From positions 1-56,255 of the IMG/VR virus record IMGVR_UViG_3300031269_000017: 56,255 nucleotides of DNA. The stretch is one strand, 5' to 3'. The translations under genes were made by a program, and so were the position numbers. Numbering within the stretch: the first letter of the stretch is position 1; the number at the start of each line of letters is the position of its first letter. The stretch comes from a virus. The notes beneath the pieces were generated by a model. That model made no database searches. It worked only from the letters and a program-made list of their open reading frames with translations, and was not told where the DNA came from. Positions 664-56,255 of this stretch are shown in pieces.

Positions 664-692
664 TTGTCAATTAAATTGATTATATTTATACT
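664..692 (+). promoter_or_regulatory. Candidate sigma70-like promoter before the ligase gene
   Basis: TTGTCA at 664-669 and TATACT at 687-692 with a 17-base spacer, ending 18 bases before the ligase ATG. An inverted repeat (ATTGATTA at 675-682, TAATCAAT at 694-701) overlaps the -10 element and could be an operator. This class differs from the AAACTT and GATATATA motifs seen elsewhere in the window. One occurrence in A+T-rich DNA could be chance. Confidence 0.35.
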
Positions 693-2595: not shown

Positions 2596-2835
2596 ATGAA
2601 AGACTTAACTATTACAATATCAGGTGACTGTGGTTCTGGGAAATCTCGAATGTCATATTTCCTAAAGGATTTTTTAGAAGATCGTGGATTTACAGTAGAA
2701 CAATCACCTGATACAGATTTTCCAGATAAAACAGAATTCGAATCGGAAATGAGTCGCAATTTAGACAAAGTAATTTCAGGATTTACAGAAACAAGAAAAA
2801 TCAAAATTAATCAAACACAAACAACACATCGATGA
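2596..2835 (+). CDS. Small P-loop protein (79 aa)
   Basis: A longer reading starts at 2554 inside the ligase gene, but the ATG at 2596 puts the Walker A loop GDCGSGKS at residues ~10-17, as expected for a P-loop protein beginning with a beta strand (LTITISG). Only the first third of a normal nucleoside kinase or AAA core is present, so it may bind nucleotide but lacks a visible Walker B or lid. Short P-loop proteins of this kind occur in other phages; the role is unknown. It overlaps the next start by 4 bases. Confidence 0.7.
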   Translation: MKDLTITISGDCGSGKSRMSYFLKDFLEDRGFTVEQSPDTDFPDKTEFESEMSRNLDKVISGFTETRKIKINQTQTTHR

Positions 2836-3242
2836 AAACACAAGACCGAATCAATAAAGATTTTATGATAGCCCTTAAAGGTGGTGAAAGAGACAAAAAG
2901 ACGTTTTTAGGTCTTGTTAGAACAGAAATCATATTAAACGAGGGTCGTGGTATAGAAGCCACTGACGAAAATGTGATAAAGGTTCTCAAAAAATTAGCAA
3001 AAAGCATCAAAGAAAACATTGATAATGGTGATCAAGATGCAGAACAAGAACTTAAATGGCTTTCTCCATATTTACCGATATTAATGTCTGAAGGTGATAT
3101 AGCAGGAGAATTAGATTTATTCTTGAGTACTTGCCCTGCTGAAGACATGACAATAGGTTCCATTATGAAATATTTCAATGCAAATTTTAAAGGTCAAGTC
3201 GACAATAAGATTCTATCTGCACTTATTCGAGAAACGATATGA
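2832..3242 (+). CDS. YqeY-like (GatB/YqeY domain) protein
   Basis: 136 residues matching the whole length of bacterial YqeY (about 148): an N-terminal helix with I-N-K-D-F-M-x-A-L-K, a middle K-S-I-K-E helix, the typical EL-x-x-L-x-P-Y-L-P-x-x-x-S-E-x-x-I segment, and the C-terminal sequence near MTIGSIMKYFNANFKGQVDN, which mirrors the M-G-x-V-M-x-x-x-x-x-x-x-x-G-x-x-D pattern of the family. In cells the domain is found at the end of the GatB subunit of tRNA-dependent amidotransferase, where it contacts tRNA; free YqeY has no settled function. It overlaps genes on both sides by 4 bases. Confidence 0.8.
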   Translation: MKTQDRINKDFMIALKGGERDKKTFLGLVRTEIILNEGRGIEATDENVIKVLKKLAKSIKENIDNGDQDAEQELKWLSPYLPILMSEGDIAGELDLFLSTCPAEDMTIGSIMKYFNANFKGQVDNKILSALIRETI

Positions 3243-3690: not shown

Positions 3691-4096
3691 AGGTCAAATA
3701 GCTTTTAAAATGTAGAGAATGCATAAAAGACTCGAAGGTAATAATCGTTGAAATTTATGAAGACAAAGTCATCAAAATCCCTAAGGATTTTGAGGCTGTT
3801 TTGCAAAACAGATCTGAATCCTATATTTGGGAAAAAACAAAGCAACCCCTACTTATGTAGTTGTGAGCTTAAAGATGATATATTTCTGTATATGGAAAAG
3901 GTTGAAGATATTTCACATAACATCGAAGGTATAGTCAAAGACTGGTTACCAGGAAGATTTTAAAGATTTATTAAAAAAGCACCCAAAACTAGAATACGGT
4001 GTTCTTAATGGCGTACCTAAAATTTATGATTATGCCGATTGTGAATTTGATTGGAGTAAAAATGAACCTGAAGATCTGTTTTGTGAAGATTTATTA

Positions 4097-4123
4097 AAAC
4101 TTAATTCAACTTTCATTATATAA
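4097..4123 (+). promoter_or_regulatory. AAACTT-class promoter, topoisomerase genes
   Basis: AAACTTAA, 11 bases, TTATATAA, followed 6 bases later by the start codon of the topoisomerase large subunit. Same elements and same spacing as five other sites in the window (7958, 11569, 25364, 28444, 46634). It lies inside the 3' end of the broken gene upstream. Confidence 0.6.
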
Positions 4124-6077: not shown

Positions 6078-7473
6078 GAAAGGTGTTGAAATAAGATTAC
6101 CAATTTCAAAACATATTGATATAAATTTTAGAGATTATGCTCTTTATGTTTTAGAAAACCGTGGAATACCTTCATTTTATGACGGTCTTACAAATGTTCA
6201 AAAATTCATATTGCAAAATGCGCCATCTAATTTTAACAAAACAATATCATTAGTTGGGGACTGTATTTCAGCAGGATACCATCATGGTGATTCTTCTGTG
6301 AAAGGTGCCATTAATAAATTGGCAAGACCCTTTGGATGCGCGCAACAAATGCTTGAAGGTGATGGATTTTTCGGGACACCGGTAAATCACGAAGCTGCGG
6401 CCCCTAGGTATACATCTGTGAAAATCAATAAAGATGTCCAAGGTATTATAAAGGAGAATAGTTTCCTTAATTCTAAGGATGAAGAGGGACTTTGGAATTC
6501 TCTTTGGACTCGATTGCCCTTGGGTTTAACAACTACAATTATAGGAATAGCTGTAGGATACAAAACTACTATACTTCCTAGATCAATCGAAGATATCGAA
6601 AATTATTTACAAGGTAAATCCAAAGAAGTTATTCCAAGTTTTATTGGTTTTAGTGGAAAGGTTACAAGATTTCAAAATTTAGATCGTTCATGGTTGATTC
6701 AGGGCAATTATAAAATTGATCAAAAACATAAATCAATTCATATTACTTCTTTGCCACCTATGATGAAATATAAAAAGTTTCTAAGTAAAGTGGATGGATT
6801 ACTCACAAAATATGAAGACAAGTTTACAATCAAGAATAATTCCTCAGATGACATAGATATGCTTATCACATTTAGAGGTCGTTCCCAAGATCAATTCGTA
6901 GAATTTACTAAAGACATCGAAAAAAATGTCAAAATGTTAGTAACAGAGACTCCAGTATTTGTGAAAGATGGGAGTGTTTTGGTATATGAAAAAATCGAAG
7001 ATTATCTTGATGATTTTAAATATAGACTTCAAGAACTTGAGTTAAGAAAACAAGAATATTATTTGAATAAGACAAGTTTTGAACTTGAATTTCAGCGAGC
7101 TAAACTTGATTATCTCAAATTCATGTTGGTTAAGAAAAGGACAGAAGATGAAATTTTTGAATTCTTTGAATCTTACGATAAAAAAATTGCTACAAGATTA
7201 GATACTATAAAGCTTAGAAATTTAACTGATAAGGAAATTATCAGGGTCAAAGATAAAATTAAAGAACTTGAAAAAGAAGAAAAATCTTTGATCAGACTGG
7301 TTGATAAATTAAATAAGGCTTTCGATAAATTAATTGATCCTACGATCAAGAGAAAAACAGATAACCGCGTTAACCAAACTGATTTGTTTGATGATAGTGA
7401 TTTTGAGGATTATGATGGTATAGAAATTTTCGGTAATGAAAAACGAGAAATGGCCGAAGACTTAAACGAATAA
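6061..7473 (+). CDS. 52: Type II DNA topoisomerase medium subunit (T4 gp52-like)
   Basis: 470 residues (T4 gp52: about 440). This is the DNA breakage-reunion (GyrA/ParC-like) subunit. The N-terminal winged-helix region reads SKHIDINFRDYALYVLENRGIP, matching the conserved start of gp52/GyrA; GDCISAGYHHGDSSVKGAI is the conserved 5Y-CAP segment; the active-site tyrosine is Tyr117 in EAAAPRYTSVKI. A long coiled coil (~330-430) forms the C-gate arm, and an acidic tail follows. It works with the 4130 gene product. Confidence 0.95.
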   Translation: MAKKYKKGVEIRLPISKHIDINFRDYALYVLENRGIPSFYDGLTNVQKFILQNAPSNFNKTISLVGDCISAGYHHGDSSVKGAINKLARPFGCAQQMLEGDGFFGTPVNHEAAAPRYTSVKINKDVQGIIKENSFLNSKDEEGLWNSLWTRLPLGLTTTIIGIAVGYKTTILPRSIEDIENYLQGKSKEVIPSFIGFSGKVTRFQNLDRSWLIQGNYKIDQKHKSIHITSLPPMMKYKKFLSKVDGLLTKYEDKFTIKNNSSDDIDMLITFRGRSQDQFVEFTKDIEKNVKMLVTETPVFVKDGSVLVYEKIEDYLDDFKYRLQELELRKQEYYLNKTSFELEFQRAKLDYLKFMLVKKRTEDEIFEFFESYDKKIATRLDTIKLRNLTDKEIIRVKDKIKELEKEEKSLIRLVDKLNKAFDKLIDPTIKRKTDNRVNQTDLFDDSDFEDYDGIEIFGNEKREMAEDLNE

Positions 7474-7568: not shown

Positions 7569-7958
7569 ATGGAAAAAATCAGAAAGGTAACAGATATTAG
7601 TAACAATAGACTAACTAGTCAAATGCAAGAATATATGTTCATGGAAAATCTAAAACCAAGCGTAGATTTAAGCAGCAAGTCTTGGACATTAATCAGAGTG
7701 TTAAAAACAGAAACAGCTAATGTTCCATGGTTAATAATGTATGATGACATGTTTTATGTTGCAATACAGTCAGACAATAGAAGATTTGGAAGTAATGGAG
7801 TTTCATTTTATCCTTCTAATGAAAAGGGTCGCTATACAATATCACTCAAAACACAAATAACTAGGCTTTATAATTATGTAGATTTGGAAGCTGCGTGTGA
7901 CCAATTTACAGATAATTTATATGCTCAAAAAATGAAAGAAAGCTTAGAAATTAACTAA
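7569..7958 (+). CDS. Hypothetical protein (129 aa)
   Basis: 129 residues, mixed alpha/beta composition, with no recognised family or catalytic motif. It lies between the topoisomerase and clamp genes; its last codons overlap the promoter motif of the clamp gene. Probably a small phage-specific replication-region protein, but the sequence gives no function. Confidence 0.65.
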   Translation: MEKIRKVTDISNNRLTSQMQEYMFMENLKPSVDLSSKSWTLIRVLKTETANVPWLIMYDDMFYVAIQSDNRRFGSNGVSFYPSNEKGRYTISLKTQITRLYNYVDLEAACDQFTDNLYAQKMKESLEIN

Positions 7959-7984
7959 AACTTATTAACATATTTTTAATATAA
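7958..7984 (+). promoter_or_regulatory. AAACTT-class promoter, sliding clamp
   Basis: AAACTTAT, 11 bases, TAATATAA, followed by ACT and the clamp ATG 18 bases downstream. Identical spacing to five other sites. The -35-like half is within the stop region of the preceding gene. Confidence 0.65.
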
Positions 7985-8002: not shown

Positions 8003-8752
8003 ATGGCAAAAACAGTATTTAAGGTGGTATCACCCAGTAATTTTAGCGCTTTTTTAAAGCGATTTTCATCAATCGAAGAAAGTCTACTTGTTGAAATTGA
8101 GGAAGGCGAAATGAAAGCAAAATCATTTACGCCTGAACGAGCAGTAGTCAAATTTTCTAGAATAGGTTTAAACGAAATTTTTGATCATATTGAAGGTCCC
8201 GAAGAATTACTTTTCGGCATTTATAAAATGCCTCAACTTATGGGAGCATTCAAACATTTTTCTGGTGAATTTGAAATTATAATTAACCACGAAAAACTTG
8301 ACGGTAAAAATATCGCGACCGATATTATTCTTAAATCACCTGATAATAAACTTAAGGTCACTTTAGAATGTGCTTCGTACCGTTTATTTAAACACTTATC
8401 TGATGAATTGTTTTTAGATAATATTGCAAATATCAAGGATGATGTTCAGGCAAAATTTTCTTTTAGCAAAGAAACTTACTCTCAAATTAATTCATTAACA
8501 GGTATTGATACTGATGATAAAATAATTGGGTTCGAAAATACAGATACTGGAGTCTCGGTTAAAGGATCAGCATTTGAAATGGAAGTAGTCGAAGGAAAAT
8601 TTGATGTATTTTCTATTAATGTATACAAACAACATTTTAATTTAATTGATAGTGAAGATGTTGAATTATACATTTTATCTGATAAAATTGTTTGTCATAG
8701 TAATGACGAGAATACAATAACAGTAATCGGCGAAACACAAGGAGATGATTAA
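8003..8752 (+). CDS. 45: Sliding clamp (T4 gp45-like)
   Basis: 249 residues (T4 gp45: 228). It starts FKVVSPSNFSAFLKRFSSIEES and has two repeats of the clamp fold, with gp45-type features: a KSFTPERAVVKF strand after residue ~40, DKLKVTL-like strands and a HLSDELF segment near the domain boundary. As a trimeric ring it tethers the polymerase and, in T4, also couples gp55-directed late transcription to replication. Its stop codon shares bases with the polymerase start (TAATG). Confidence 0.88.
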   Translation: MAKTVFKVVSPSNFSAFLKRFSSIEESLLVEIEEGEMKAKSFTPERAVVKFSRIGLNEIFDHIEGPEELLFGIYKMPQLMGAFKHFSGEFEIIINHEKLDGKNIATDIILKSPDNKLKVTLECASYRLFKHLSDELFLDNIANIKDDVQAKFSFSKETYSQINSLTGIDTDDKIIGFENTDTGVSVKGSAFEMEVVEGKFDVFSINVYKQHFNLIDSEDVELYILSDKIVCHSNDENTITVIGETQGDD

Positions 8753-9942
8753 TGGAATTAGTACACTGCAATTTAAATATAGAAAATTCTTCGCGTGAAG
8801 AAATACTTAAAGAAATAGATCGACTCGAAGCTATCAGAAATGAAAAAGCTAACGAGGAACAAGGAATCAAAATTTTCATTAACTCGATTTATGGGGCTTC
8901 TGCATCTGCATACTTTATAGGATTTAATCTTCGGGTTGCGGAATCGATAACTTTACAGGGACAAGATCTAATTTTCTTTGCAACTAAAATCCTTAATACA
9001 TACTTTCAAAACAAGTGGCATAAAGATACAAAATTACATAAAGCTTTAGGTATCACTACTAAGGTTGAAAAAGTATTATCTGAAGTTGTAGTATATGGCG
9101 ATACAGATTCTACTTATCTATCATTCCATGATGTAATGAAATCTTGTGATTGGCCTTTGGGCGATGGTAAAAATTTCGTATTAGGTTTATATAAACACAG
9201 ACTCAAGGATTATATTGAGCAATGTTTCAATCTTTATGCGAAACGTTCAGGTACAGATAATATTCAAAAGCTAGAGCTTGAAAAAATTGCTTGGTCAGGT
9301 ATTGTATTAGCAAAGAAAAAATATGTACTTGATTTAGCATGGAAAGATCCAGGTATTTCCTATGATCATTTAGCAAAAATCAGTCCGACTGGTGTTGAAT
9401 TAGTGCAATCATCGACGCCCAAGTTTTGTCGAACACACCTCATGGATTTGTTGGAAATATTATTCAGAGAAAAACAAGATCTTAATCTTGTCAAGTTCAC
9501 AGAAAAATTGCGCGAACTTAAAGATCAATTTAAACTTTCTGATGTAACTGAAATATCCAAAAACACGAGTATTTCTGATTATAACAAATACATCATACAA
9601 GATAAGGATAAATTGTCTATTGCTAAAAAATGTCCGGCTCATGTTCGTGCCGCTGGAATCTATAATTATAAAATCAACAATAATCAAAAACTTAAGAGAA
9701 AATATCCACTGATTAAATCCGGTGATAAGGTTTCTTGGTATTACGCAAAGGCACCATTTAATGAAAAAGAGTTTGATGTTTTTGCATACACACCTGCCCA
9801 TCATCCATATGAAATGGCACCCGAAGTTGATTATGATCGACAATTTTCTAAAGTAGTTATTGAACCTATCAATAGATTTGTTCAAACTATGAAATTTGGC
9901 GCAATACCGCCAAACTTAATAACGTCAAAAAGATTATTTTGA
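8752..9942 (+). CDS. 43B: DNA polymerase family B, C-terminal part (T4 gp43-like, split)
   Basis: 396 residues covering only the last part of gp43 (about 900 in T4). Present: end of the fingers helix, motif B (K40-x-x-x-N-S-I-Y-G48), motif C YGDTDSTY (Asp117, Asp119), the KKKY motif (LAKKKYVLDL), the thumb segment GVELVQSSTPKF, and a C-terminus ending KRLF, where gp43 carries its clamp-binding tail. Absent: 3'-5' exonuclease and motif A (D-x-x-S-L-Y-P). The start is an ATG in a TAATG overlap with the clamp, so this is a genuine separate chain, not a truncated sequence. The N-terminal partner is not in the window. Confidence 0.92.
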   Translation: MELVHCNLNIENSSREEILKEIDRLEAIRNEKANEEQGIKIFINSIYGASASAYFIGFNLRVAESITLQGQDLIFFATKILNTYFQNKWHKDTKLHKALGITTKVEKVLSEVVVYGDTDSTYLSFHDVMKSCDWPLGDGKNFVLGLYKHRLKDYIEQCFNLYAKRSGTDNIQKLELEKIAWSGIVLAKKKYVLDLAWKDPGISYDHLAKISPTGVELVQSSTPKFCRTHLMDLLEILFREKQDLNLVKFTEKLRELKDQFKLSDVTEISKNTSISDYNKYIIQDKDKLSIAKKCPAHVRAAGIYNYKINNNQKLKRKYPLIKSGDKVSWYYAKAPFNEKEFDVFAYTPAHHPYEMAPEVDYDRQFSKVVIEPINRFVQTMKFGAIPPNLITSKRLF

Positions 9943-11565: not shown

Positions 11566-11568
11566 AGT

Positions 11569-11595
11569 AAACTTTTTACAAAAAAAGTAATATAA
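11569..11595 (+). promoter_or_regulatory. AAACTT-class promoter, helicase operon
   Basis: AAACTTTT, 11 bases, TAATATAA, then ACTTTA and the gp41 ATG 8 bases downstream. Same layout as the clamp and clamp-loader promoters. Likely serves gp41, the 148-aa protein, gp47 and gp46, which follow with almost no gaps. Confidence 0.65.
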
Positions 11596-17444: not shown

Positions 17445-17453
17445 AGATATATA
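17445..17453 (+). promoter_or_regulatory. GATATATA-class (late) promoter motif
   Basis: AGATATATA followed by C, 32 bases before the start of the 873-residue protein, in the short gap after the gp15-like gene. Confidence 0.5.
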
Positions 17454-23544: not shown

Positions 23545-24663
23545 GTGAAAAATAACAGCGCACAAATGCCACTACCTATAATATTATTAATACTGTTTTC
23601 ATTTTTGGCAGTTTTCTATTTATTCTATAAACTTATAAAATATTGTAGACATCTTTGTTATTGTCCAGGCAGTGGCTCAGGTAGTGGTAGCGGTTCAGGT
23701 AGTGGCTCAGGTTCCGGATGTCCAACAGGTTATCATTCAATAAAACTTAAAAGGCTTCCAGGAAATAGCGATATCATAGGTAAAGGTTTTCATAGAAGTG
23801 GATGGCCTTATGTAGTTAATCATTTATATCCTTTACATTCAGAAAGTGGAATTTTATTTGATGATTTTGTCGAACAAAATTTTTGTTATGTAGACAAACC
23901 AGAAATATATACTGAGCCATGGGTCGGAGTTTTTCATCACCCACCAAATATGCCGTATTTTGGGAATCGCCCTGAAAAATTTGAGGTTTTTACAAAGACT
24001 AAAGAATTCCAAGAATCAATTAAAATGTTGAAACTGGCTATAACTTTAACCGAGTTTCATGCTGTGGAATTAAGAAAAATAGTAGATTGTCCTGTTATTG
24101 TTATTGCACACCCAGCTAAACAAGGATTTCCTGAATGGTCTGAAGAGGAGTGGGAAGCAAATCCACGGAAAGAATTAATACAAATTGGTTTTTATCTTAG
24201 AAACACACAACTTATTAATCAGATACCTATCATTAAAAATGTCCGAAAGATTAGATTATGGATAGACAGATTTTGGATAAATGCCTATGATTCCCGAGTT
24301 AAAAAATATTGGAATGCCGAATCTACTAGGAAAAATTATGGAGAATTTAGGGATAGATATTTCGTAACACCAAGGAACTTTGATAAGATGTTATCTAAAA
24401 ACGTCGTTGTTATGGAATTCTTTACTTGCTCTGCAACTAATGGATTATTAGATTGTTTAGTAAGAAATACACCGTTGATTGTAAATAGACATCCTGCAGT
24501 CGTTGAATATTTAGGCGAAGATTATCCTTTATATTTTGATAATCCAGAAGAAATACCTGGATTAGTAGAACGGGCAGTAGAAGGACATAGGTACATGAAG
24601 AACATGAATAAGGAATTCTTAAAACCTATCAACTTTATAAACAAATTATTGGATAATTTATGA
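23545..24663 (+). CDS. Membrane-anchored glycosyltransferase-like protein
   Basis: 372 residues from a GTG start; an ATG 7 codons later is possible. Residues ~9-30 form a transmembrane helix, followed by basic/Cys residues, then a Gly-Ser linker (about residues 42-57, alternating G and S), then a globular domain of ~310 residues. The domain has GT-B-like features seen in phage and giant-virus glycosyltransferases: GFHRSGWPYVVNHL near its start, WVGVFHHPPNMP (~130), TLTEFHAVELR (~173), VIAHPAK, and a C-terminal nucleotide-binding half with NTPLIVNRHPAVVEYLG-type sequence and E-x-x-P-x-L-V. It ends in an ATGA overlap with the sulfotransferase gene. Target unknown: virion or host surface glycan. 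Confidence 0.65.
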   Translation: MKNNSAQMPLPIILLILFSFLAVFYLFYKLIKYCRHLCYCPGSGSGSGSGSGSGSGSGCPTGYHSIKLKRLPGNSDIIGKGFHRSGWPYVVNHLYPLHSESGILFDDFVEQNFCYVDKPEIYTEPWVGVFHHPPNMPYFGNRPEKFEVFTKTKEFQESIKMLKLAITLTEFHAVELRKIVDCPVIVIAHPAKQGFPEWSEEEWEANPRKELIQIGFYLRNTQLINQIPIIKNVRKIRLWIDRFWINAYDSRVKKYWNAESTRKNYGEFRDRYFVTPRNFDKMLSKNVVVMEFFTCSATNGLLDCLVRNTPLIVNRHPAVVEYLGEDYPLYFDNPEEIPGLVERAVEGHRYMKNMNKEFLKPINFINKLLDNL

Positions 24664-25307
24664 GAAAATATGCAGTAATGTGTGGCAGTCGCAGCGGCAG
24701 CTCTTACTTATGTGATCTTTTAAAATCTACAAATAGGTGTGGTAATCCCAATGAATATTTTAATCCTGAATTAAAGGATAGTTGGATGGAGAAATTTGGC
24801 TATAAACCAAGTTATGTTGATCGCCTAATTAATAAAACTAAGACTGAAAATGATGTTTTCGGAGTCAAAATCGTAGGTGTAAAAGATCAGTTGGAAACAT
24901 ATAACAATTCCATTCTTAATCTTTCACATTGGATATGGTTAAGAAGAGAAAATCAAATTTTACAAGCAATTTCGAGATATAGAGCATGGGAAACTGGAAT
25001 TTGGCATATGAAACATCCTAATCATAAAAAGACTGTCGAATATAATAAAGGTGGTATTCAATGGTGCTTAGATGAAATTAGATCAGAGGAAAAGTTTTAT
25101 GAAGAATATTTCAATGATAAAGATCATATAGAAATTTGGTATGAAGATGATCTGGTGGATGCTCCTGAACAAACTGTAGTTTCTATATTATCATATTTAA
25201 AAATAAGTACTGAGGAGATTCCCGTATTAAAAACTACGCAGATAATATCTAGAGATAAAATCTCAGAAGAATGGCAAAATAGATTTACGTCTGATTTAAC
25301 AAATTGA
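24660..25307 (+). CDS. Sulfotransferase, Stf0-like
   Basis: 215 residues. The N-terminus YAVMCGSRSGSSYLCDLL is the 5'-phosphosulfate-binding loop of PAPS-dependent sulfotransferases, and the following C-G-N-P-N-E-Y-F matches the Stf0 family (x-G-x-P-x-E-Y-F). Further Stf0-like pieces: FGVKIVG (~82), IWLRRENQILQAISRYRAWETG (~102), and YEDDLVDAPEQTV (~160). Stf0 transfers sulfate to trehalose glycolipid in mycobacteria; here the acceptor is unknown. Overlap with the glycosyltransferase gene suggests the two act on one glycan. Followed by a strong terminator, so the pair closes its operon. Confidence 0.8.
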   Translation: MRKYAVMCGSRSGSSYLCDLLKSTNRCGNPNEYFNPELKDSWMEKFGYKPSYVDRLINKTKTENDVFGVKIVGVKDQLETYNNSILNLSHWIWLRRENQILQAISRYRAWETGIWHMKHPNHKKTVEYNKGGIQWCLDEIRSEEKFYEEYFNDKDHIEIWYEDDLVDAPEQTVVSILSYLKISTEEIPVLKTTQIISRDKISEEWQNRFTSDLTN

Positions 25308-25340: not shown

Positions 25341-25363
25341 GATTATATTTAATAAATCTTCTA

Positions 25364-25390
25364 AAACTTATCACAACTTTCTTAATATAA
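25364..25390 (+). promoter_or_regulatory. AAACTT-class promoter, clamp loader
   Basis: AAACTTAT, 11 bases, TAATATAA, 27 bases before the gp44 ATG and directly downstream of the terminator. Being in a true intergenic gap right after a terminator makes this the cleanest example of the class. Confidence 0.7.
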
Positions 25391-28215: not shown

Positions 28216-28444
28216 AAAAATGACAGAATTACTTACACAACTATTTAGATTTTATCAAAAAATGTTTGAATATGATCTAGAAGTTTTTAGTCAATCGTGG
28301 ATTTATATCTGCTTATTAATACCTGCCTTTATGTACCTTTGTATTTTTTTACTTAAATGGACTATACTTACTGTACCATTTTGGATACCTGTTCGCCTTG
28401 CCTTTGAAGGAATTGCTAGTATTATTAAAGCAATTAAAGAATAA
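28208..28444 (+). CDS. Small membrane protein (78 aa)
   Basis: One long hydrophobic region (IYICLLIPAFMYLCIFLLKWTILTVPFW is split by a Lys) that can form one or two membrane helices (~33-60), followed by a short amphipathic C-terminus. Inner-membrane location predicted; a holin-like role cannot be excluded but nothing specific supports it. Confidence 0.6.
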   Translation: MNEKMTELLTQLFRFYQKMFEYDLEVFSQSWIYICLLIPAFMYLCIFLLKWTILTVPFWIPVRLAFEGIASIIKAIKE

Positions 28445-28470
28445 AACTATTCACAATTTAGAAAATATAA
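28444..28470 (+). promoter_or_regulatory. AAACTT-class promoter (variant)
   Basis: AAACTATT, 11 bases, AAATATAA, ending 8 bases before the ATG at 28479. The -35-like half differs from the others at one of the first six positions (AAACTA), but the spacing is identical. It begins at the stop of the preceding gene. Confidence 0.5.
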
Positions 28471-39146: not shown

Positions 39147-39155
39147 AGATATATA
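39147..39155 (+). promoter_or_regulatory. GATATATA-class (late) promoter motif
   Basis: AGATATATA just downstream of a terminator and 37 bases before the start of the chaperone/baseplate-type gene. The terminator-then-motif arrangement supports promoter function. Confidence 0.55.
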
Positions 39156-40334: not shown

Positions 40335-40359
40335 CCTGGGTAGATATATACTACTCAGG
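40335..40359 (+). promoter_or_regulatory. Late promoter motif inside a hairpin before the tape measure
   Basis: CCTGGGTAG / CTACTCAGG (9 bp with one G-U) around a 7-base ATATATA loop; AGATATATAC at 40342-40351. No T-tract follows, so it is not a normal terminator. The tape measure ATG is 20 bases past the motif. Confidence 0.6.
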
Positions 40360-45652: not shown

Positions 45653-45960
45653 TGGCACACAACGGCTAAATGTATGGTGTCGTAGCGACCAAAACAGCAC
45701 GAAACTTTGATTAATAAACAACTTTAAAAATAAAACAGATGAAAAATTTAAGAACAAAACCAAGCTATGCACTATACATATTGTTAGTTGCTTTTTTATT
45801 TACGGGAACATGATTATGAATTGAAACAATACATCATAGACTATATAGAAAAGAATAATTAGGACCATTAGATTAAAACTTTTTCCTTAATAGGGTAATA
45901 TATAATAAAATAAATTTGATTCAATCTAGGGTATCTAGATTAATCTACAATATATAAATT
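45653..45960. other. 308-base stretch: possible non-coding block, broken membrane peptide gene, inverted repeat
   Basis: No intact gene. 45653-45715 is less A+T-rich than its surroundings, holds GTCG/CGAC around TAG, and reads like an intergenic element. 45739-45813 starts MKNLRTKPSYALYILLVAFL and stops at a TGA; in frame +1 the sequence goes on as REHDYELKQYIIDYIEKNN to TAG at 45862, so one indel seems to break a ~40-residue membrane peptide gene. 45923-45941 is an inverted repeat AATCTAG-GGTAT-CTAGATT, 20 bases before the next ATG, possibly an operator. Confidence 0.55.
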
Positions 45961-46239: not shown

Positions 46240-46653
46240 ATGGCTAAGTATTATAAGAAAAAGGATAGTTATTTTAATAGTCCTAAACCACCTAAAGAAG
46301 GAATGGTACCTCTAGGTCGAGGGTGGATAACCGAGGAAGAAGCAAAAAGATTAATTGGTCCTTCTGAATATGATCCACGAGAATTAGAAGTAATTTGTAC
46401 TTTGACAAAAAAACGTAGTCCATATTTTTGTGCGTATATAATTGACCCACTTAATGATAAAGGTGATAGTCATTTTATCATGTGTATGTATGTTCGCCAC
46501 AAAAATAGCAAAATTGCACATTCACATACTTTAGTTAAACAAGACATGTTGAATTGGATAACTGCCAACCAAAACATGGAAAAATACAATGCGCCAGTGT
46601 GGAATAAAAAATATGATTCTGATAAAAAACTTGAAACTTTTTTAAACTTATAG
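46240..46653 (+). CDS. Hypothetical protein (137 aa)
   Basis: 137 residues with a basic start (AKYYKKKDSYF), a proline-rich stretch, then a compact alpha/beta part. H-S-H and C-x-x-x-Y-V-R-H pairs are visible but form no motif I know. The last codons contain the -35-like half of a promoter motif for the next gene. Confidence 0.6.
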   Translation: MAKYYKKKDSYFNSPKPPKEGMVPLGRGWITEEEAKRLIGPSEYDPRELEVICTLTKKRSPYFCAYIIDPLNDKGDSHFIMCMYVRHKNSKIAHSHTLVKQDMLNWITANQNMEKYNAPVWNKKYDSDKKLETFLNL

Positions 46654-46660
46654 AATATAA
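46634..46660 (+). promoter_or_regulatory. AAACTT-class promoter, deaminase region
   Basis: AAACTTTT, 11 bases, GAATATAA, 17 bases before the ATG at 46678. Sixth site of the class, spacing identical. Extends the class to accessory genes outside the replication block. Confidence 0.55.
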
Positions 46661-47446: not shown

Positions 47447-47507
47447 AATTTTTTGTTTCCAATATTTTTATTTATATTTAACCTAATACTTATCACCCCT
47501 ACTTAAT

Positions 47508-48131
47508 ATGAGAAAAAAATCTGCCAATTCAGTACAAACATTTGCCGATAATTTTATTAATGATAAATCTGAGAAAAACTTCGGTGTTTTGTATGCTAGG
47601 TTAGCACCAGGCATGCGCAAATACGTGTACAATTATATTGGTAATTATCATATTACTGAGGCTGCAGTCGCAAATGCATTTGCTAAAATATGGAATAAAA
47701 TTGATCAATATGATGAAAAATATGCATTTTCTACTTGGTCATATAGAATTGCGCGAAATGAAGCGTTAATGATTGTCAATAACAGGGACAATTGTTATTC
47801 AATAGATAAAATGCAAGATATGGGAATCGTGCTTACTACAAAATGCCCAGATTTATCTGTAGATCCTGAGTATGAATTTTTTGAACCTACAAAGGAAGAA
47901 CAAACTAACAATCTGTACGAAGCTGTTATTAAAGGTATCGATAATTTACCTGAAAAATACATGATTACATTACAACTTCGTCTTGTGAAAAGAATGAAAC
48001 TTAATGAAATCGCAGAAGAAACTGGTTGGAATCTTAACACAGTCAAAACAAGATTAACCAAGGCATTATCTTTGATCAAAAGAAATGTAGAACTTGAGGA
48101 ACCTAGACTTGTTGAAAAATTTACAAAATGA
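47508..48131 (+). CDS. ECF-type sigma factor
   Basis: 207 residues. Region 2: RKYVYNYIGNYHITEAAVANAFAKIW, then FSTWSYRIARNEALMIV, the classical sigma2 pattern (F-x-T-W-x-Y-R-I-A-R-N). Region 4: NLPEKYMITLQLRLVKRMKLNEIAEETGW followed by N-T-V-K-T-R-L, a standard helix-turn-helix (read in pieces). The linker (~105-135) is short, so it is the ECF layout (regions 2 and 4 only). Phage-encoded ECF-like factors next to a gp55-like factor are unusual. It has an ATGA-type overlap with a membrane protein gene, a common place for an anti-sigma factor. Confidence 0.85.
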   Translation: MRKKSANSVQTFADNFINDKSEKNFGVLYARLAPGMRKYVYNYIGNYHITEAAVANAFAKIWNKIDQYDEKYAFSTWSYRIARNEALMIVNNRDNCYSIDKMQDMGIVLTTKCPDLSVDPEYEFFEPTKEEQTNNLYEAVIKGIDNLPEKYMITLQLRLVKRMKLNEIAEETGWNLNTVKTRLTKALSLIKRNVELEEPRLVEKFTK

Positions 48132-48640
48132 GTCAAAAGATACCAGCCAACACAGACAGAGTATTAAATAAATATTATACGATGAATTTTTTTCAAAGAA
48201 CATATGCTGCTTGGCGAGAATTAATGAATTTTTTCTTTGTTAGAAGAGTCATTAAAAGAAACCAAAAAACTGATAAATGGAAATCTTTTAAGCTTAGATC
48301 AGGATGGCTAAATCAAATTTATACGGTCATTAATTTACGCAAAGAAGATATGGGTGAAGAAGAAGATATCAGGAAAATGCGCGTCATTGAAAAGATTGAA
48401 CCAATGAATCGTTATATGGAAGATTTAAATCTTGCAGAAGTAATGAGTATTGAGTTTAACGATATTGATGATACTAGATCTTATTTGATAATTTATTGGC
48501 CGCTATGGAATTACTTTTCATTATGGCGACTAATTTTTTGGATAACAGGAATTCTTATATCATACAAAATTATTGTTCATTATGATTTGATCAATAAAGT
48601 AACAGAATTAGTAACTAAAATAATTGAATATGTTAATTGA
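48128..48640 (+). CDS. Membrane protein next to the sigma factor (170 aa)
   Basis: 170 residues: basic soluble N-terminal part (~1-110), then one or two membrane segments (IIYWPLWNYFSLWRLIFWI, ITGILISYKIIVHY) and a short tail. It overlaps the ECF-like sigma gene by 4 bases and could be its membrane-bound regulator, but the usual anti-sigma zinc motif is absent. Otherwise unknown. Confidence 0.6.
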   Translation: MSQKIPANTDRVLNKYYTMNFFQRTYAAWRELMNFFFVRRVIKRNQKTDKWKSFKLRSGWLNQIYTVINLRKEDMGEEEDIRKMRVIEKIEPMNRYMEDLNLAEVMSIEFNDIDDTRSYLIIYWPLWNYFSLWRLIFWITGILISYKIIVHYDLINKVTELVTKIIEYVN

Positions 48641-49437: not shown

Positions 49438-49446
49438 GGATATATA
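49438..49446 (+). promoter_or_regulatory. GATATATA-class (late) promoter motif
   Basis: GGATATATA 33 bases before the start of the 169-residue gene, in a true 60-base gap. Confidence 0.5.
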
Positions 49447-53078: not shown

Positions 53079-53097
53079 TGTAGATATATAATCTACA
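53079..53097 (+). promoter_or_regulatory. Palindromic late promoter motif before the fibre operon
   Basis: TGTAGAT-ATATA-ATCTACA (7-bp perfect stem) with AGATATATA at 53082-53090, 30 bases before the ATG at 53121. Third example of the motif lying in an inverted repeat (also 30105 and 40335). Confidence 0.55.

Positions 53098-53558: not shown

Positions 53559-56255
<2,697 letters not shown>

Follow-up and report, generated by a model that had tools for sequence, protein, structure and literature searches.

The 56-kb virus record analysed here (56,255 nucleotides; hereafter the window) comes from a T4-like myovirus that encodes an ECF-type (group 4) sigma factor. We propose, with a probability of about 85%, that this factor guides host core RNA polymerase to the middle promoters of replication and nucleotide-metabolism genes, which have the form AAAAC(TT)-N18-TATAA in this phage. 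The early genes, including the sigma gene itself, would be read by the host primary sigma factor. The ECF-type sigma would open the replication class next, its region-4 recognition helix contacting the -35 element, and the late class, marked by the box GATATATA, would be read by a separate gp55-like sigma. Binding, transcription and timing in this scheme are what we infer from comparing sequences. The host is probably a member of the Bacteroidota.

The product of the sigma gene is a two-domain sigma factor of the ECF superfamily, comprising regions 2 and 4. It had been described in the initial annotation as ECF-like with these two regions only, and both this description and the exact limits of the ORF proved correct, with Pfam, TIGR02937 and PDB comparisons in agreement. 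No match to the region 1 or region 3 families of Pfam was obtained for this ORF, and the same composition, with regions 2 and 4 found and no region 1/3 family, is observed in all 56 of the 56 aligned phage homologues. The window sigma scores 69.3 bits with TIGR02937 (sigma70-ECF, NCBI), for which the cut-off is 42.9. The profile of the 56 homologues matches 24 PDB sequences, all of which are ECF or ECF-like sigmas, with Bacillus subtilis SigW as the top match (3e-20). In an AlphaFold2 model of the window sigma (mean pLDDT 84.6, with a weak linker at residues 111-123; pTM 0.45, the placement of the domains being uncertain), region 4 superposes on the DNA-bound region 4 of SigE (2h27, with -35 DNA) at 0.9-1.0 Å over 64 columns, and the recognition helix corresponds approximately to residues 176-197. 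The best full-length Foldseek matches of the model are ECF factors, namely SigE, SigW, AlgU and mycobacterial ECF complexes. The neighbouring ORF 48128-48640 showed no family match; linkage to an anti-sigma gene is common among ECF factors but not universal.

The T4-like genes of the window include those for NAD ligase, topoisomerase II, a split polymerase, UvsX, gp41, gp46/47, gp4, gp2, portal, gp44, terminase and sheath. A second IMG/VR record, G001 (173.5 kb), belongs to the same phage, with ~99.4% identity over most of window positions 1-45619; it adds 129 kb of unseen sequence and ends before the sigma gene. The two strains differ by insertions/deletions at 2.6-4.1 kb and 29.03-29.18 kb of the window. 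The polymerase part of the split family B DNA polymerase is located at window 8752-9942, and its 3'-5' exonuclease subunit is encoded at a distance, at 87952-88629 of G001. Window 2832-3242 encodes a protein with a match to phrog_1460 (1.5e-20), a phage family related to tRNA amidotransferases. Between the portal and clamp-loader genes, at 23545-25307, lie two genes that had no PHROG match; on inspection, their products resemble a glycosyltransferase and a sulfotransferase. The reading frame at 53559-56255, of higher G+C content and open at the record end, contains a long collagen-like (Gly-X-Y) repeat and probably encodes a fibre.

With regard to the middle promoters, the AAACTT boxes initially linked to the sigma factor were upheld in part. 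The hexamer alone, with 128 copies in the window for 85.7 expected, is weak and was rejected as evidence, whereas the bipartite element (A)AAAC(TT)-N18-TATAA is far above chance (Table 1). The pattern AAC-N14-20-TATAA occurs 21 times 5' of genes in the window phage, G001 included, against 6.8 in shuffles. AA directly precedes AAC in 17 of these 21 sites (1.3 expected from shuffles), many of them located outside the window, in the near-identical strain, and the spacer is exactly N18 in 16 of the 21. The consensus over 15 middle sites is TAAAACTT...aATATAAA. Five more intergenic sites were found in the unseen part of G001 with the pattern AAACTT-N11-15-TAATAT, which was chosen after the window sites were known, the remainder of G001 being held-out sequence. 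In the window phage, de novo motif finding did not separate middle from late sites but put both into a single motif, the second and third motifs being noise or tRNA-like arms; the middle motif was recovered in G053 and G004. Across relatives, the general form of the class is (A/G)AACTT-N-ATATAA. The -35 element is always of the ECF type, that is, AAAAC, AGAAC (similar to the GGAAC of SigE) or GAAAC (similar to that of SigW), depending on the phage. The -10 element is TATAA, which resembles the late box and is not of the CGT type that ECF factors usually have.

Table 1. Sigma genes and promoter boxes in the window (positions are those of the window).
Feature	Position	Strand	Remarks
Early-class box TTATATTTA, 5' of NAD-dependent DNA ligase gene	680..688	+	
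Middle box AAAAC-N18-TATAA, 5' of topoisomerase II large subunit gene	4095..4123	+	AAC triplet at 4098
Middle box, 5' of gene 8003	7956..7984	+	AAC triplet at 7959; gene sliding-clamp-like by position, no family match
Middle box, GTAAAC variant, 5' of gp41/DnaB-type helicase gene	11567..11595	+	AAC triplet at 11570
Late box GATATATA, 5' of ORF 17486	17446..17453	+	
gp55-like late sigma gene, 115 aa	20381..20728	+	phrog_234, 3.6e-11
Middle box, 5' of gp44-type clamp-loader gene	25362..25390	+	AAC triplet at 25365
Middle box, 5' of ORF 28398	28442..28470	+	AAC triplet at 28445; likely true start of the ORF ~28479
Late box, 5' of ORF 39193	39148..39155	+	
Late box, 5' of ORF 40371	40343..40350	+	
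Irregular middle box, AAAACTT with longer spacer, 5' of ORF 45961	45873..45908	+	AAC triplet at 45876
Middle box GAAAC-N18-TATAA, 5' of ORF 46678	46632..46660	+	AAC triplet at 46635
TTATATTTA, candidate early (host-type) promoter -10/-7 box, 5' of sigma gene	47472..47480	+	Early-class match; same place in relatives
Weak motif ATACTTAT-N10-TAATAT at sigma start	47486..47509	+	In the initial annotation; -10 overlaps start codon
ECF-type sigma factor gene, 207 aa, ATG start	47508..48131	+	Pfam, TIGR02937, PDB, Foldseek
Sigma region 2, residues 28-88	47589..47771	+	PF04542, 1.5e-10
Sigma region 4, residues 139-188	47922..48071	+	PF08281, 2.6e-8
Late box, 5' of ORF 49480	49439..49446	+	
Late box, 5' of ORF 53121	53083..53090	+	

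The genes behind the middle boxes are largely replication genes. Those of the window include the genes for the topoisomerase II large subunit, the gp41-type helicase and the gp44-type clamp loader, as well as gene 8003, a putative sliding-clamp gene by its position, family searches having given no match. In G001, the box precedes the genes for the polymerase 3'-5' exonuclease, SSB, a thymidylate-kinase-like protein, a homing endonuclease and a protein that matches the phosphoheptose-isomerase and polynucleotide-kinase families. Among 18 phages, 41 of 64 replication genes have the middle box 5' of them, compared with 8 of 49 structural genes (Fisher 4e-7); for the late box, the figures are 0 of 64 and 23 of 49 (Fisher 1e-10). 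These p values overstate independence, since the records are related. The middle element is kept 5' of replication genes in sigma-bearing relatives or in fragments syntenic with sigma-bearing phages; G003, G005, G007 and G008 are close relatives with the box, represented by fragments that end before the sigma locus.

Based on the comparison of orthologous upstream regions, three promoter classes (early host-type, middle and late) are common to seven phages. The early class exhibits TAnnTTTG-like boxes, TAnnTTTG being the -7 box of the flavobacterial primary sigma (PMC9723704). The early box TATATTTG of G004 occurs 11 times against 1.1, and a similar box occurs in Tenacibaculum phage PTm1 (23 against 2.3). 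In the window phage, a targeted test of the box TTATATTT(A/G) gave a moderate excess, with 7 occurrences against 1.2 in shuffled sequence and 3 on the reverse strand; in this phage the early motif was not recovered de novo, and the explicit pattern TTG-N-TAnnTTTG had zero matches. The early and late motifs were recovered de novo in most of the relatives searched. The early host-type motif of G006 was considered as a diverged middle motif, which the orthologous upstream comparison ruled out. The late box is found 18 times 5' of genes in the window phage, against 1.1. This enrichment, together with the phrog_234 match of the 115-aa protein, supports the proposal already made that a gp55-like factor would serve the late class. 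The gp55-like protein has no match to any region-4 family.

Composite sites, which combine a middle -35 (AAAAC) with a late box (GATATATAA) ~N18 downstream, are observed in G001 5' of the genes at 6577, 22932 and 111072 (SSB). Their arrangement suggests promoters that both phage sigmas could read.

At the sigma gene itself, the initial annotation had reported only a weak copy of the motif overlapping the start, and this copy is indeed present at 47486. Its -10 overlaps the sigma start codon, and the copy is probably no promoter. The early-class box just upstream is a better candidate, and early-type promoters also precede the sigma gene in the relatives whose upstream regions were compared. 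In addition, the middle box at 46632 stands ahead of ORF 46678, the dCMP deaminase gene and the sigma gene, a position that may place the sigma under its own positive control.

Relatives of the window sigma were not found by a single-sequence scan; with an alignment of three sequences they were detected in at least 171 viral stretches. Of these, 80 were kept, and 66 distinct sigma proteins, including that of the window, were extracted. The sigma-bearing phages are known here from metagenomic contigs alone. A gp55 is also present in 27 of 49 sigma-bearing records and in 10 of the 10 that are at least 100 kb long, so the arrangement of one ECF-type and one gp55-like sigma is the rule in the clade. 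The two-sigma strategy is consequently not the unusual one it had been taken for, and SPO1 is an older precedent. MotA and AsiA had no above-cut-off match in 12 clade records (the window, G001 and ten relatives), and among 16 records both were above the cut-off only in T4, the positive control; G051 gave a single weak MotA match below threshold. A search for the gp33 co-activator family detected no member. T4, P-SSM2 and PTm1, which have gp55 and no ECF-type sigma, showed no enrichment of the middle box. G050 has the sigma and few boxes. Sphingomonas phage PAU exhibits 22 GAAAC-N-TATAA boxes against 0.7 expected, and an orthologue of the window sigma is absent from it.

PAU (NC_019521) also exhibits TGAAACTT-N-TAGTATAAT boxes 5' of 26 genes. 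Its gp1, a divergent sigma-like protein, was rejected as a sigma orthologue because its recognition helix differs and its Pfam scores fall below threshold. Annotations name gp1 both an RNA polymerase sigma factor and an internal capsid protein, so this sigma might conceivably be packaged. In LR756500 (462 kb), LR756504 (636 kb) and Prevotella phage Lak-C1, 3-5 sigma region 2 matches are observed in each, one being gp55-like.

The residues of the recognition helix were compared with the -35 bases. In SigW, K170, T171 and R175 (R171, S172 and R176 in SigE) contact the -31 base pair, the purine at -34 and the G at -35 (PMC6713349). Residues T178, K180, T181, R182 and K185 of the window sigma align with T168, K170, T171, R172 and R175 of SigW, positions 180, 181 and 185 of the phage sigmas thus being equivalent to K170, T171 and R175. 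These three predicted -35-contact positions differ among the phage sigmas jointly with the -35 bases. Sigmas with KTK at these positions (window, L073) pair with AAAAC and those with KTR (L104), the triplet of SigW itself, with GAAAC, both classes comprising very few phages (one box in L073, three in L104). RTK (8 loci) pairs with AGAAC (12) and AAAAC (4), so that RTK phages use AA besides AG at -35/-34, and KNR (53 loci) pairs with GAAAC (59) and TAAAC (43). Phages of the K185 group mostly have a spacer of 18, those of the R185 group one of 17. The tree of the sigmas shows a single change at residue 185 and three at residue 180; its window branch is long and of unsure placement. The independent contrasts between residues and bases are therefore few, and the association of K/R185 with A/G is a single evolutionary contrast. 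These pairs can be read jointly as a natural record of change in ECF -35 specificity, in which residue 185 (K/R) would set A or G at -35 and residue 180 (K/R) would bias A or G at -34. Each lineage would then have a private middle-promoter system whose targets all moved together, and composite middle-plus-late promoters, such as that of SSB, would move genes from the control of one phage sigma to that of the second. We give this joint reading an even chance of being right.

The link between the ECF-type sigma and the AAACTT class, which was initially proposed, has strong comparative support in the conserved boxes, the ECF-type -35 elements, the joint variation of residues and bases, and the absence of the boxes from T4, P-SSM2 and PTm1. 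The same observations bear on other possible readers of the boxes. A host ECF sigma could read them, with the phage sigma modulating host genes or other phage genes, given that -35 elements of the GAAAC and AGAAC kind are common to ECF factors in general, that Bacteroidota have several such factors (seven in one flavobacterium; PMC9723704) and that boxes occur in PAU, which lacks an orthologue of the window sigma. However, the flavobacterial ECF motif that has been described has a CGT -10 (PMC9723704) where the phage boxes have TATAA, the residues of the phage sigma and the -35 bases go together, and PTm1, whose host Tenacibaculum is a flavobacterium, lacks both the phage sigma and the boxes. 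Reading by a host ECF sigma is thus very unlikely.

It is less likely still that the gp55-like sigma, alone or with a co-activator, reads the middle boxes and that the ECF-type sigma has another role. What is conserved is a -35 element at a constant distance, whose bases vary jointly with the ECF recognition helix, whereas the gp55-like protein has only 115 aa and no region-4 family match, and the gp55-bearing phages that lack an ECF-type sigma (T4, P-SSM2 and PTm1) are without boxes; the similarity of the middle -10 (ATATAA) to the late box and the composite sites of G001 are the observations in favour of gp55. The least likely reader is the host primary-sigma polymerase with a MotA/AsiA-like activator. 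This is the mode of middle transcription in T4 and is used by its relatives, and an activator that escaped recognition is conceivable, but neither MotA nor AsiA was found above cut-off in the 12 clade records, with T4 positive, and these phages have early promoters that look unlike the middle boxes.

If reading by the ECF-type sigma is right, it would supply the missing middle transcription step of widespread T4-like jumbo phages that have gp55, no detectable MotA/AsiA and, between them, more than 60 distinct sigmas. The promoter rules would then allow genes to be assigned to the early, middle or late class in genomes that are largely unannotated, and the natural sigma/promoter pairs that differ at known contacts would form a test set for changes of ECF specificity.

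Compared with known ECF factors, the window sigma resembles SigW and SigE in having regions 2 and 4 only, in the fold of region 4, in its GAAAC/GGAAC-type -35 and in the K/R, S/T, R and K/R residues at the base-contact positions. In contrast to SigW and SigE, it is encoded by a phage, no anti-sigma gene was recognised adjoining it, the -10 is TATAA rather than CGT-type, and the window phage, whose sigma has K185, exhibits A at -35 in place of G. As with gp36 of phiEco32 and gp47 of 7-11, which are of similar size and already known, a phage sigma would take the host core polymerase to non-early promoters. However, phiEco32 and 7-11 are podoviruses whose sigmas act on late genes or on middle and late genes together, whereas only the replication class would be served here, and gp36 is without a recognised region 4 and its promoters without a -35. 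To our knowledge, phiEco32-like podoviruses have no gp55. The promoters of phage 7-11 are bipartite, GTAAtg-(16)-aCTA (PMC8948821), and the sigma of SU10, a relative of the phiEco32 group, has been annotated as an ECF sigma factor (PMC4281155).

In SPO1, gp28 (middle) and gp34 (late) are phage sigmas and both are essential (PMC9429907). The arrangement of one middle and one late phage sigma is therefore similar, by description, although SPO1 is a Bacillus phage and not T4-like. Successive phage sigmas, and phage sigmas for middle or late genes, are thus already established (SPO1; phiEco32, 7-11). Sigma factors, some minimal and some fuller, have been reported in the group 2 jumbo phages, which belong to the same broad T4-like group (Iyer et al. 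2021, PMC7824862); a word search of that article gave no mention of the ECF type, and no assignment of middle promoters was found in it. Our literature search, which does not prove absence, found no ECF-type sigma assigned to a middle promoter class in gp55-bearing T4-like phages. The phages described here share with T4 a T4-like genome core, a gp55-like late sigma and a TATA-type late box. In T4, the middle class depends on AsiA/MotA and the late class on gp55, whereas here MotA, AsiA and gp33 were not detected and the middle class would be read by the ECF-type sigma.
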